From Trebouxia sp. TZW2008 (lineage: Eukaryota > Chlorophyta > Trebouxiophyceae > Trebouxiales > Trebouxiaceae), in NCBI GenBank assembly GCA_002118135.1, contig BDIU01000099.1, forward strand, positions 62,001 to 126,000: 64,000 nt of DNA, read 5' to 3'. A program made the position numbers and the translations under genes. Shown here in pieces: positions 595 through 53,770 of the stretch. A model generated the notes under the pieces. The model was given only the letters and a program-made list of their open reading frames with translations. It did not search any database and had not been told where the DNA came from. Position 1 is the stretch's first letter; each line of letters opens with the position of its first letter.

Positions 595-1677
595 GTTTTG
601 GTCCTAAATGGCACACAACCTTTGCCAAACCTAGTGGGGAAGACATGCAGCAGATTGCCAAGCTCATGGCCGCAGGACAGCTCAGAGCTGTCATTGACAA
701 AACATTTCCATTGGAGCAAACAGCGTAAGCCAACCTATTATGAGAGGGGAGAAAAAAAACATTTATTGCAAACGGGATGAGCTAGTGCTGAGATGCATAG
801 CTGTCTGCTATGTGGGCACACTTCTTTGGCAGCAGTTGCTGATTCCAATTGTGACAGACCATGCCCATTGGATCAAGCAGCATAAGCTGTACACATATGC
901 CAGAATGCCTGGGCGTATGTGCTTGAACGTCCCACATGCAAAGTGAAATTACTGTCAAGCCTGAAGCTGTGATGCACTAGTCCGTGGTATGTGCTCAGTC
1001 CTCTAGCCACAGTTGCTGCTTTTGTTTCATGAAGCTGTGACAGGCTGCATTGCTGTTGCCTGTGCAAATTGTGTCCTTCTGTGTACACAAATGCAACTTT
1101 GTGAAAATATTTCCCAGACCTTGTGCAGAGTCTGCCTGCTAGGGATCCGAACACCAAAAGCCGTGCTGTCAGAAGTGAGAGAGAGTCTCATGCTTTAGCC
1201 AGCCAACAAGACTGATCACATGTGCCACACCGTGGCAATGACTATACGTCCATGAAACTCAGGCAGTCTTATGACATAGTGAATAACCCCCAGATAATCA
1301 TGTTGCGCAAAAGAAGCGCGCATGTCATGACCGCAGCCTTCAAACAAATGAGGATACTTGGCCCGCACCCCAGCCAATGCTCCCTATTCAAACACTAAGT
1401 GCTTTTCATCGCCTAAGGCCCCAGAACCACACCGTGTGCACAGCCTACAGGCTGTACTGGCTGCAACTCTGTGTGCTAATGGCTTGGTATTGTCTACATA
1501 CTTTGCAGCTACCCTGTGCTTCTGGCGTGTGCAAGTGCATCAGGAGCATGTACAGCCCTCATAGGCTCACACCATTTGCCTGTCTTAAGAATAATGGTTC
1601 TCTGCTGCAGGGCAGCACACCAATATGCAGAGACTAGCCATCCAAGCGGCAAAGTGGTGATCAGAGTGTCTTCATAA
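595..1677 (+). CDS. zinc-type alcohol dehydrogenase / quinone oxidoreductase family, C-terminal exons
   Basis: Two exons are visible, 595-724 and 1611-1677, joined in phase 2 (donor GTAAGC, acceptor CTGCAG). Together they encode the conserved C-terminal part of the MDR quinone-oxidoreductase family: the FAKPSGEDM segment, then AGQLRAVIDKTFPL, then a final GKVVIRV strand just before TAA. That order and the final Gly-Lys-Val-Val are the family's normal ending. The cofactor-binding Rossmann fold and catalytic domain must lie left of the window, since no exon with the required phase is visible in 1-594. By family, such enzymes reduce quinones or reactive enals with NAD(P)H. Substrate and location cannot be told from this piece. 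A degenerate copy of the 3' end of the first exon (ccattgga..agca) lies at about 845-885, inside the intron. Confidence 0.72.
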
Positions 1678-2922
1678 TGTGCAAGCCAGAAGCCCAGCAT
1701 GCCTGCAGCAAACGGTGTGCAGGTTTAGATAGGCACGACCTCCAGTGACACTGCTGTTTGGTGAAGGTTTTGCCACAGGTTGCTACGTAGCAGGCAGTGA
1801 CAGTGCAGAAGATAACAAGTAAACTACTAAAGGCGTAGACTTTCCTTTTTTTCTTTTCTTTCAGAAGATAAAGACTTCCTGGGCTGCCTCTTCAGACAGA
1901 GGCTCCCACTATGATGTTCAACGGCGTAGACTGTTTGTTTTCTCCTAAAGACTGACTGAATCTCAATGTGATTCAGAGATGTGGCTCAGTATCAAAGGCT
2001 GACCTACAGCGATTCCTTGTAAGCTGTGCCTTATAGGTTGGTAACTGCACTGCGTTTATGTACTGCTTGGCATGACAGCATGAGGGTAATTATTTTGGTC
2101 TTGGACAGCAGATTCATGTGTTTTGGGATGAGACCGTATACACGCTTTGAGAATGTGTCGACACTGTGTTGATGTCAGCATGTGACTGTCAGGTCTCCAA
2201 ATCAAGACGTTTGCACGCCCTGGCAAATAGCGTATGCTGATACAGCGTGTGTTGTGAATTAGATCTTGCCCCAGTCAGAAAAAGGTCAGACCTGGTGATT
2301 CACAGTTCTCATCAACAGGGGCTTTCCAGGCGGAACAAAGTGTTGAAGCTTCGACTTAGCTATGGAACAGCTGCAAGTTGGCAACATCAGCCTGCAGGTT
2401 CAGCTGTTTTACAGGGCTGACCACGGACTTGTTCTGGCATGCTGCTGCAAGTGTTGCTTCAGAGGCTGCAAGCATTGCACCCTTGTTGCTCATTGCTTCT
2501 GATGTGTATGTGCTGCATGCCTCTCACCTATATTTCAGAGCTAACAGAGTCATTCTGCCAAGGTCCTTGGCCCATGTCGCAAAAGGCTTGTACGCCGGCT
2601 GCCTTGACAGACTTGATGCTTGTTGTCACGCAACCTACATCATTATCGATGCCTGCAACGTGGGTCAAGTCTGCAGCATGCTATTTGCGCAAACAACACA
2701 GCACACATCTGACACAGGCATTCATTTGCTGAGCTGCTACTGCAGTGTCTGCAGAGCTTGCTGTGAGTAACACAGTAGTCATGTATGAGTTATATCAGTC
2801 ATACTTTCATCGCCGATTACAACCAGCTGCGAGCCACTAATGTCATTCACACAGGCGCAAGCTCGTGCGTTGAATTGAGGATACTCTGCTTACGATACAG
2901 CGCATTTGGTGTTCGCAGTAAC
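1678..2922. other. intergenic region without a supported gene
   Basis: This region holds two pieces of a dispersed element. A 130-codon + strand ORF at 2378-2770 has no recognisable domain, no splice partner and a composition like neighbouring noncoding DNA. The last few hundred bases should contain the rhodanese promoter, but I see no clear TATA box. Confidence 0.5.
1831..1945 (+). repeat. dispersed element, copy 1 (two pieces)
   Basis: The segment 1879-1945 shares with 13334-13403 and 28432-28500 the order GGCTGCCT, ACAGA-GGCTCCC, CGCTAT, a GGCGTAGAC-type block, then a T-rich tract. The tail alone (GGCGTAGACTTT plus pyrimidines) also occurs just upstream at 1831-1863. It is a short interspersed repeat of unknown class with no coding capacity. 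Confidence 0.7.
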
Positions 2923-52200: not shown

Positions 52201-53770
52201 ATGCATATGCTGCAGGAGCAGGAGTATCAGGTCTTGTCAGACGTTCCTGGTGCTGAGGAAGGCCTAGGCAGTGAGCATGCCATAACACAACAGATGAGGC
52301 AGGAATGGCAGCATGTCAAGCTGAGCAATGCGCAGGCGTCACCACAGCTTTTGGCATCATCTTTAGTGTACCGGACATGTCCCGATGACTTGCCATGCAT
52401 ATGCTGCAGGAGCATGAGTATCAGGTGTTGTCAGACGTTCCTGGTGCTGTGGAAGGCCTGGGCACTGCGCATGCCATAACAAGCATCATGCGGCAGCAAT
52501 GGCAAAGCGTCAAGCTGAGCAATGCCTAGATGTCACCACAGCTTTTGGCATCATCTTCAGTGCATTGGCTGTCTCAATGAGTTGTCATGCATATGCTGCA
52601 GGAGCAGGGATATCCGGTGTTGTCAGACGTTCCTGGTGCTGTAGAACATCTAAGCAGTGAACATGCCATAACACCAAAGATGAGGCAGGAATGGCAAAGC
52701 GTCAAGCTGAGTAGTGCCCAATTGTTGCCAGAGCTCCTGGCAGCGTCTTTAGTGTACTGGACATGTCCAGATGAAATCTTATGCATATGCTGCAGGAGCA
52801 GCAATATCAGGTGCTGTCAGACATTCCTGATGATGTGGAAGGCCTGGACACTGCGCATGCCATAACAGGCATCATGAGGCAGCAATGGCAACATGTCAAG
52901 CTGAGCAATGCCCAGATAACACCACAGCTTCTGGCAGCGTCTTTGGTTTACAGGACATGTCTCTATGAAGTGTCATGCATGTACTGCAGGAGCATCAGGT
53001 CTTGTCAAATGTTCCCGGTGCTGTGGAAGGTCTGGGCACTGCGCATGCCCTAACAAGCATCATGAGGCAGGAATGGCAAAGCGTCAAGCTGAGCGATGCC
53101 CAGGTGTCCCCAGAGCATCTGGCAGCAGCATCTTGAGTGTATTGGACATATGCCAATGAGTCATCATGCATATGCTGCAGGAGCAGGAATATCAGGTCTT
53201 GTCAGACATTCCTGGTGCTGTGGAAGGCCTAGGCAGTGAACATGCCATAACAAGCACCATGAGGCAGGAATGGCAAAGTGACAAGCTGAGCAATGCTCAG
53301 GTGTCACCAGAGCTCCTGGCGGCGTCTCTGGTGTATTGGAAAAAGCCCTCAAGGCCAGCACAAGCGATCTGTTTTGGCGATGTTGAGGAAGGTGACATGC
53401 CAAAGGTGAGCAGTGGTGCAGACATAAGCACGCTTCCTTGTTTGGGTGTTGTATGATAGCTCGCAGCTTGCATGCCAAGCAAGTCTTCTGCCCTTTTGAC
53501 ACTCACAATGTCACTGTTTATCAGTACATGCAGTACTTGTTGCTGTACAAACTGTGTGTAACTCCCTGATTCCTTTGGGAATGTGGCATGCCTATACGAA
53601 ACATGTTGTCTGCAAATACTCAATAGATTGTTCTCGAGGAAGTCTGCATGAATGGTTTTCACAGCTGTTGTTATGCTTTGCAGAGTGCATACAAACAGCT
53701 GCAACGGCAGGTGGAAGAGTGGCTGACTCTGGCTGGACCAGCTGCAGCTAGAATGCTGTTTGTCCCTTGA
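43217..53770 (+). CDS. ATE1: arginyl-tRNA-protein transferase (N-degron pathway)
   Basis: Nine exons (43217-43360, 43440-43553, 44233-44367, 44708-44880, 48275-49280, 49764-49893, 50614-50909, 53181-53405, 53684-53770) keep one frame for 769 residues. The N-terminal domain has the cysteines known in ATE1 ([11 protein letters not shown] and [13 protein letters not shown]), now viewed as an iron-sulfur site. The catalytic part has [70 protein letters not shown] and [16 protein letters not shown]1 adds Arg from Arg-tRNA to N-terminal Asp/Glu, marking proteins for degradation. Exon 5 carries a ~270-residue low-complexity insertion between the two conserved parts, so the protein is longer than the plant enzyme as I remember it. 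Intron 4 is GC-AG and 3.4 kb long. Intron 7 is 2.3 kb and packed with exon copies. Confidence 0.92.
44881..48274 (+). other. long ATE1 intron 4
   Basis: This 3.4-kb GC-AG intron (donor GCAAGC, acceptor GGTGTTGCAG) has no recognised gene or transposase on either strand. Loosely related blocks with GTGCTGCTGT and CTCGCTAGGA occur around 45220-45450 and may be a worn tandem repeat. Confidence 0.6.
48826..48975 (+). repeat. coding tandem repeat in ATE1 exon 5
   Basis: A ~33-36-bp unit is repeated four to five times, encoding variants of [11 protein letters not shown] (SSPQ or SSPP core followed by a Gly/Ala/Leu spacer). All copies are in frame, so the array is translated. It lies in the insertion between conserved ATE1 parts and is likely a flexible linker rich in possible Ser-Pro phosphosites. 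Confidence 0.85.
51088..51350 (+). repeat. decayed downstream copies of ATE1 exon 7 3' edge
   Basis: The last ~95 bp of exon 7 (CATAAGATGCGCTA..GAT/GTAAGC) is repeated near 51088-51190 and 51255-51350. The first copy still reads [15 protein letters not shown] and [14 protein letters not shown] with a GTAAGC donor. The second is diverged ([13 protein letters not shown]) and has lost the donor. The period is about 170-180 bp. Both lie downstream of the real exon. Confidence 0.9.
51637..53345 (+). repeat. nine-unit array of the ATE1 exon 8 5' edge
   Basis: Units of about 190 bp start near 51637, 51818, 52011, 52200, 52394, 52586, 52781, 52974 and 53165. Each has ATGCATATGCTGCAG as acceptor region, then GAGCAG..ATCAGGT-TTGTCAGAC and the coding block up to the LLAASLVYW codons. 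Only the ninth continues into the rest of exon 8 and a GTGAGC donor. Several earlier units remain open for most of their length ([21 protein letters not shown]), so they could be chosen by the spliceosome as alternative acceptors. Confidence 0.95.

Follow-up and report, generated by a model that had tools for sequence, protein, structure and literature searches.

The window, the whole 64-kb stretch of Trebouxia DNA analysed here, carries decaying direct copies of exon edges inside introns; spastin, ATE1 and an aprataxin-like gene are among the genes affected. The principal features are as follows.

695..887, forward strand: weak 36 bp copy (695-730/852-887; 34.6 bits) in the oxidoreductase of the original prediction, donor side as judged by eye, without a gene model
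7488..8124, no strand assigned: strong repeat, three copies about 212 bp apart, outside any gene model
10187..10326, reverse strand: duplication inside an exon, offset 87 (a multiple of three), frame preserved
14983..15251, reverse strand: AIP2-like gene (so named in the original prediction), two 88 bp copies in a predicted intron, offset 181, at least 50 bits
15480..15658, reverse strand: AIP2-like gene, acceptor-edge copy (15480-15519/15619-15658), offset 139, 42 bits
21534..22655, forward strand: aprataxin-like gene, array of exon edge plus intron, 172 bp period, matching only itself in the genome
23247..24878, forward strand: aprataxin-like gene, nested copies of exon edge plus intron, smallest offset 119 bp
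25728..25934, forward strand: duplication inside an exon, offset 123 (a multiple of three), frame preserved
26713..27150, forward strand: aprataxin-like gene, copies of the HIT-domain exon edge, 179 bp period
29699..30165, reverse strand: copies derived from the 3' part of spastin exon 30463-30298, on its donor side
30298..30463, reverse strand: working copy of the spastin exon encoding DEIDSIL...[12 protein letters not shown], by alignment to solved spastin
30638..30681, reverse strand: copy of exon 30463-30298 on its acceptor side, 91% identical, offset 211
30715..30783, reverse strand: downstream, on the donor side, the 3' end of exon 31211-30947 copied at offset 233
30947..31211, reverse strand: working copy of the spastin Walker-A exon, aligned to solved spastin without gaps at its junctions
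31235..31415, reverse strand: upstream of exon 31211-30947, on the acceptor side, a decaying copy of that exon's 5' part, 88% identical at an offset of 195 bp
37262..37527, reverse strand: coiled-coil gene, mostly intronic pair that barely reaches an acceptor, offset 183
38195..38493, reverse strand: coiled-coil gene, acceptor-edge copy of 39 bp (38195-38233/38455-38493), offset 260, at least 50 bits
50614..50909, forward strand: working copy of an ATE1 exon (ATE_C domain)
51087..51360, forward strand: 3' part of exon 50614-50909, present in two copies on the donor side
51636..53180, forward strand: array in an ATE1 intron, in which the intron end and the 5' part of the next exon recur in eight upstream copies with a period of about 194 bp
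53181..53405, forward strand: complete ATE1 exon closing the array, its start lying inside the structure match

Clear exon-edge copies scoring at least 50 bits span 21.5-27.2 kb in the aprataxin-like gene, 29.7-31.4 kb in spastin and 50.8-53.3 kb in ATE1. The original prediction listed seven genes with such copies; the aprataxin-like, spastin, coiled-coil and ATE1 genes bear it out at this threshold, whereas the edge copies of the AIP2-like gene and the oxidoreductase are weaker (42 and 34.6 bits), with further oxidoreductase repeats of 29-31 bits at 401-610. The gene finder built for this study predicts no gene in 1-9268 and misses the oxidoreductase, so that this gene and the locus at 7.6-8.2 kb fall outside comparison with gene models. 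It also calls decaying exon copies as exons, and many low-scoring exons themselves look like copies; exons scoring at least 11 are referred to as confidently predicted.

Pairs of copies were counted in 294,883 bases, comprising the window together with 18 unselected stretches, four more (L028-L031) picked because they carry AAA genes, and seven short loci (L002-L008) surrounding a dispersed repeat. The sample counts exclude L001, which is the window itself, and L013, which is low in GC and has many inverted repeats; contig C93 contributed no stretch. At 50 bits or more, 195 pairs are direct and 2 inverted (298 and 7 at 35 bits or more), an imbalance that rules out a chance origin. The decaying exon-edge copies predicted in introns are real. 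The expectation that the process reaches beyond the window is likewise borne out by clusters of such copies in 14 of the 18 unselected stretches, all from other contigs, where detectable copies make up 10.6% of bases (density figures are given for these stretches alone). Partial copies also lie upstream of the Walker-A exon of an AAA gene on contig C119, which came from a protein search rather than from the repeat scan. Copies are mostly 10-30% diverged and often multiple, and among 512 predicted splice junctions 48 adjoin a recognisable intronic copy, the exon being confidently predicted in 30 cases. The occurrence of direct copies across contigs, with 13.1% of predicted intron bases in detected copies (11.5% of exon and 7.1% of predicted intergenic bases), agrees with the prediction that tandem duplication lengthens introns; that introns are "filled" by copies suits a few of them, but not the 13.1% found overall.

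The duplicated unit has a median length of 164 bp (IQR 127-193.5); 74 of 80 pairs fall within 60-235 bp and six above, and at every simulated divergence up to K=0.3, units of 250-800 bp were recovered in 30/30 trials. Medians by class are 179.5 bp for intergenic, 147 bp for intron-only and 172 bp for junction pairs. A spacer of at least 10 bp is present in 52 of the 80 pairs and is smaller or absent in the other 28. Where at least 19 bp part the copies (48 pairs), nine spacers resemble the expected flank, about five being expected by chance; because many spacers are unlike that flank, adjacent duplication followed by even decay is not the full account. Core length and spacer are negatively correlated (Spearman -0.48, n=52), and this unrestricted correlation is preferred to a permutation limited to offsets of at most 240 (1/5000), which is biased by its own truncation. 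The copies are too diverged for any sharp breakpoint. The pairs are direct and tandem or partly tandem, with an upper size limit near 200 bp, and this combination of size cap, orientation and partly tandem arrangement fits patch repair. The predicted polarity, with acceptor-bearing copies upstream and donor-bearing copies downstream of the intact exon, holds at 29 of 30 edges of exons scoring at least 11 (the sole exception is L012 7962-8067) but is reversed at 7 of 18 edges of low-scoring exons. Since a unit spanning an acceptor keeps the whole exon on its last copy and one spanning a donor keeps it on the first, both the polarity and the outermost position of the intact exon are forced by geometry.

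Repeats at the junctions of predicted genes in the sample do exceed a shuffled background, as had been anticipated, but modestly, by 1.3-1.5-fold. Of 80 pairs, 37 span a junction, compared with 27.6 by random placement (reached in 7/1000 placements), or 30 compared with 20.1 when weak exons are removed (14/2000); random placement by itself puts roughly 1/4 to 1/3 of the pairs on a junction. Intergenic pairs are rarer than random (20 vs 27.7, as low in 10/1000 placements), so the process may be uneven over the genome. The intergenic class includes genes missed by the gene finder. Within genes the excess is smaller: junction pairs number 31/58 against an expected fraction of 0.456 (113/1000), a second estimate gives 0.566 vs 0.456 (119/2000), and all HSPs together give 89/149 vs 0.510 (38/500). 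These excesses, and the intergenic deficit, would suit a mechanism that targets splice junctions or transcribed DNA, such as reverse splicing or R-loops at exon-intron borders, and copies exon edges into the adjacent intron; recognisable homology ending 2-28 nt past the splice site in 9 of 12 hand-chosen pairs (copies 77-90% identical) and a median extension of 21.5 nt into the intron compared with 73 nt into the exon (48 edges) point the same way. The specificity for splice junctions that was originally predicted is nevertheless not supported, because duplications also occur between genes and wholly within introns, with similar unit lengths. The copies contain splice-site and intron bases, which are absent from spliced RNA. 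Residual intron homology exceeds the null 95% level in 15 of 27 flanks of exon-edge copies, indicating that the intron was duplicated along with the exon and weakening an earlier reading in which homology ended exactly at splice sites. By identity, junction pairs number 12 vs 6.3 expected at 83% or more and 11 vs 6.5 at 77-83%, but show no excess below 77% (7 vs 7.4); a constrained exon partner would concentrate the excess among high-identity pairs, as seen. Visibility bias, the explanation proposed here, may account for the junction excess. A small real preference for junctions or transcribed DNA may exist, but a junction-aimed process as the main source of the copies seems unlikely.

Decay was analysed at 30 of the 48 exon edges, after 18 at exons scoring below 11 had been dropped (three more, having no anchored flank, were removed to leave the 27 used above). 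Were the copies working alternative or mutually exclusive exons, open reading frames would be in keeping, and indeed 4 of the 8 ATE1 array copies have no in-frame stop or frameshift, while CAG|GT is kept after a 120-nt piece in 3 of the 8, two of these three being among the four open copies. Relative to the working exon, and with phases from the gene models, the mismatch is however 0.127, 0.114 and 0.232 at codon positions 1, 2 and 3, about equal at the first two positions and roughly double at the third (the codon-position figures for the ATE1 array are 64/417, 53/410 and 87/412); 17 indels are not multiples of three, and in-frame stops (8 in 809 codons vs 12.6 expected at random) are not significantly depleted (Poisson P 0.12). 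The intronic copies are free of detectable coding constraint, and a function as exons is very improbable. By contrast, only frame-keeping duplications are detected inside exons, with offsets divisible by three in 17/17 HSPs of at least 35 bits (8 clusters). The prediction that selection retains one intact copy is consistent with this unconstrained decay and with the spastin gene model, which, with the copies left out, aligns to solved spastin without a gap at the junctions. Elsewhere, the choice made by splicing between copies is presumed; where protein homology is available, it shows the working exon.

Insertion into introns of mobile elements, whether introner-like or satellite, which the many introns with repeats of similar unit length might suggest, is scarcely credible, because each unit derives from its own gene, and is contradicted for the ATE1 and aprataxin-like arrays, which match only themselves in the 68.5-Mb genome in a search skipping very common words. 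Although the assembly is a draft of 527 contigs, an artefact is hardly to be entertained when 75 of 80 representative pairs are less than 90% identical after rounding, and hence are not duplicated reads, and when frame filtering and the codon-position pattern are biological. Separately, assembly collapse could hide young copies.

The copies are therefore probably products of a general, size-capped process of tandem duplication in this Trebouxia lineage, filtered by purifying selection. A general mutational process would have given rise to direct tandem duplications inside genes and between them, for the most part shorter than about 235 bp and with a median of 164. Purifying selection would then have sifted them; the data show that all those detected inside exons keep the frame and that those in introns and between genes are tolerated. 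A unit lying across one splice junction would be tolerated because one copy is still joined to the remainder of the exon and splices as before, the consequence being a longer intron and a stranded exon piece that decays without constraint. Slow change of the constrained exon partner may keep exon-edge copies recognisable for longer, so that they seem over-represented. The breakage step may involve nicks or breaks lying close together and mended by patch repair, the mechanism put forward for rice, and the size cap is possibly set by nucleosome or Okazaki-fragment length. Young pairs are rare: only 2 of 37 non-coding pairs with an offset of at least 100 are at least 90% identical, even ages for the 35 pairs at least 70% identical are disfavoured (binomial P 1e-4), and 2 of 27 exon-edge pairs have a mismatch below 9.5% (from rounded values). 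With so few young copies, the duplication rate has probably fallen. More tentatively, a mutator episode could have spread tandem duplications genome-wide, none much longer than one nucleosome or Okazaki fragment, and then subsided, leaving dated neutral exon-edge copies in introns.

Such copies provide a natural record of intron lengthening without transposons, each being an unconstrained duplicate of a splice region beside the one in use, and the genome could serve to test spliceosome choice among duplicated sites, the rate of cryptic-site decay and limits on tandem-duplication size. They are also a warning to annotators, because gene finders may call decaying exon copies as exons, as the one built here did. 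No account of the pattern in Trebouxia was found in the literature searched, in which subscription journals were mostly outside coverage; in the accessible part of the A48 genome paper (PMC12712428), "tandem" occurs 0 times and "intron" once.

Tandem exon duplication can yield mutually exclusive exons, which resemble the present case in having adjacent exon copies with splice sites; the Trebouxia copies differ in being mostly partial and in evolving without detectable coding constraint. Introner elements are likewise repeats bound to introns on a genomic scale and of nucleosome-like length, but in the two arrays tested here the sequence is not common to other loci. The general kind of duplication is already known from rice, where, in the portions of the literature available, tandem duplications are enriched at 50-200 bp and drop from 70% to 5% of events by 200 bp (PMC7971508), and patch-mediated short tandem duplications are described as direct, tens of bp to about 200 bp long and genome-wide (Vaughn and Bennetzen 2014, via PMC7407515 and PMC7971508). 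The Trebouxia duplications share with these their direct orientation, tandem or partly tandem arrangement, genome-wide occurrence and limit near 200 bp (PMC7407515, PMC7971508), but the copies are old, often multiple and seen largely as stranded exon edges. As far as the available text of PMC3443670 describes it, intron gain by tandem genomic duplication of AGGT-bearing exon segments also combines tandem duplication with a splicing choice that can keep the protein unchanged. That process creates a new intron within an exon (PMC3443670), whereas the copies described here adjoin junctions of multi-exon gene models (intron positions being taken from this genome alone), and the unit spans a junction so that an existing intron lengthens.

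Self-comparison of the window reveals dozens of local direct repeats, bearing out the original prediction that introns here hold direct repeats. In 294,883 bases of the assembly (the window, 18 unselected stretches, four stretches with AAA genes and seven short repeat loci), local pairs scoring at least 50 bits number 195 direct versus 2 inverted and fall into 80 clusters. At least one cluster is present in 14 of the 18 unselected stretches, each from a different contig; in these stretches cluster density is 27.5 per 100 kb and detected copies cover 10.6% of bases. An AAA gene on another contig (C119), located by protein search with spastin and chosen independently of the repeat scan, has partial copies of its Walker-A exon upstream at offsets of 200, 329, 532 and 894 bp (read by eye) and an additional direct repeat, offset 190, that starts inside this exon and runs on. 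A further stretch (C27:20001-30000), excluded from the sample counts, is unlike the others, with GC of 0.415 and dense direct and inverted repeats, and is perhaps organellar. The assembly comprises 68.5 Mb in 527 contigs at about 50% GC; this fits a Trebouxia genome reported at 69.1 Mb and 49.68% GC (PMC12712428). The source is most likely a Trebouxia or a close relative of it, a photobiont of lichens.

A self-trained gene finder predicted 44 genes with 300 exons across these bases. Its consensus is CAG|GTGAGC for donors and TGCAG|G for acceptors, and the median lengths are 160 bp for exons and 366 bp for introns. Many exon copies were called as exons, and protein homology was therefore brought in as a check. 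With its extra copies removed, the spastin model aligns over 109-424 with the solved human spastin 6pek, with two one-residue gaps, neither at a junction; this alignment shows 31211-30947 and 30463-30298 to be the working exons and the adjoining copies to be surplus. The ATE1 label is supported by a structure match over residues 6-157, spanning the junction into the array-ending exon, and by an ATE_C domain; the aprataxin-like label is supported by one predicted gene that combines an AAA_33 P-loop segment with a HIT/DcpS_C segment. The AIP2-like, coiled-coil and oxidoreductase labels are those of the original prediction; the sole Pfam match of the coiled-coil model is below threshold, and Pfam gave no match for the portion of the 9.3-19 kb model that was compared. 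Features of the window are as follows.

51636-53180: ATE1 array, eight copies; four lack a stop or frameshift over the aligned piece (exon-copy alignment), and three keep CAG|GT after the 120-nt segment (sequence)
55001-55621: predicted single-exon glutathione transferase gene; best named relatives Trebouxia sp. C0010 (74%) and C0009 (73%)
1189-1456: a roughly 268 bp dispersed repeat, 5' end near-constant and 3' end variable, SINE-like in apparent behaviour; at least 39 further genome copies at 82-90% identity (40 of 348 candidates scored)
34568-34660: simple tandem repeat, 15 bp unit, 6.2 copies, 91%
11765-11841 / 56384-56460 and 1882-1942 / 13337-13396: short dispersed similarities, likely other repeat families

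For the two ATE1 array copies that combine an open frame with CAG|GT, in-frame inclusion is possible in principle.

A copy drifting freely for time t, beside an exon changing only at silent sites, would show a mismatch of t at codon positions 1 and 2 and about 2t at position 3. The mismatches of copy against working exon at 30 confident exon edges (0.127, 0.114 and 0.232 at positions 1, 2 and 3) match this expectation at t near 0.12. Free drift also agrees with the in-frame stops, which number 8 in 809 codons against an expectation of 12.6 (Poisson P 0.12), and with 17 frameshifting indels in the copies. Together with exon-internal duplications, whose HSP offsets are divisible by three in 17 of 17 cases (8 clusters), these patterns indicate that selection acts on the exon and not detectably on the stranded copy. 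They support the proposal that selection keeps one intact copy.

The smallest offset per cluster, taken as the unit length, has a median of 164 bp (interquartile range 127-193.5; 80 clusters) and lies within 60-235 bp in 74 of 80. The pipeline was also run on simulated duplications, 30 for each cell. For K up to 0.2 it recovered units of 100-800 bp in a fraction of 0.93 or more, 60 bp units less often and 25-40 bp units never. The upper cap is therefore real, and detection explains part of the lower edge. Median units are similar in intergenic (179.5), intron-only (147) and junction (172) classes, and selection on genes therefore seems not to have set the cap, a reading tempered by the presence of missed genes in the intergenic class.

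Spacers of at least 19 bp separate recognisable copies in 48 of 80 pairs, and only 9 of the 48 resemble the expected flank; among 12 pairs inspected by eye, 9 lose homology within 2-28 nt of a splice site. A duplicated unit with a decayed intron part is one candidate origin, favoured by two results: junction-anchored flank similarity lies above the null 95% at 15 of the 27 edges, and core length correlates negatively with spacer length. Partly tandem events, as reported for rice in a review (PMC7407515), are the other candidate.

When the same pairs were placed at random on the same gene models, junction-spanning pairs proved in excess (37 of 80 versus 27.6; 7 of 1000 placements reach 37) and intergenic pairs in deficit (20 versus 27.7; 10 of 1000 as low). 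The predicted excess of repeats over splice junctions is thus present, and persists with weak exons removed (30 versus 20.1; 14 of 2000), but is weaker within genes (31 of 58 versus a fraction of 0.456, 113 of 1000; over all HSPs 89 of 149 versus 0.510, 38 of 500; with weak exons removed 0.566 versus 0.456, 119 of 2000). It is also absent below 77% identity (7 versus 7.4), whereas it is seen at 77-83% (11 versus 6.5) and at 83% or more (12 versus 6.3). Visibility bias predicts such a gradient, since decay is slower in pairs of which one member is constrained; junctions or transcribed DNA may also be favoured to a small but genuine extent.

Young pairs are scarce in the sample: identity reaches 90% in 2 of the 37 non-coding pairs whose offset is at least 100, and mismatch stays below 9.5% in 2 of the 27 exon-edge pairs. 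Assembler collapse should mask chiefly those copies that are almost identical, so a fall in the duplication rate is likely, although short of proven.

Tandem duplication is an established route to intron gain (PMC3443670), also in Drosophila (PMC2891723). No description of the present pattern in Trebouxia was found in the literature searched, a search that most subscription papers fell outside. The Trebouxia duplications are of the same kind as the established cases, but differ from them in their age structure and in that junction-spanning units lengthen introns at many genes.
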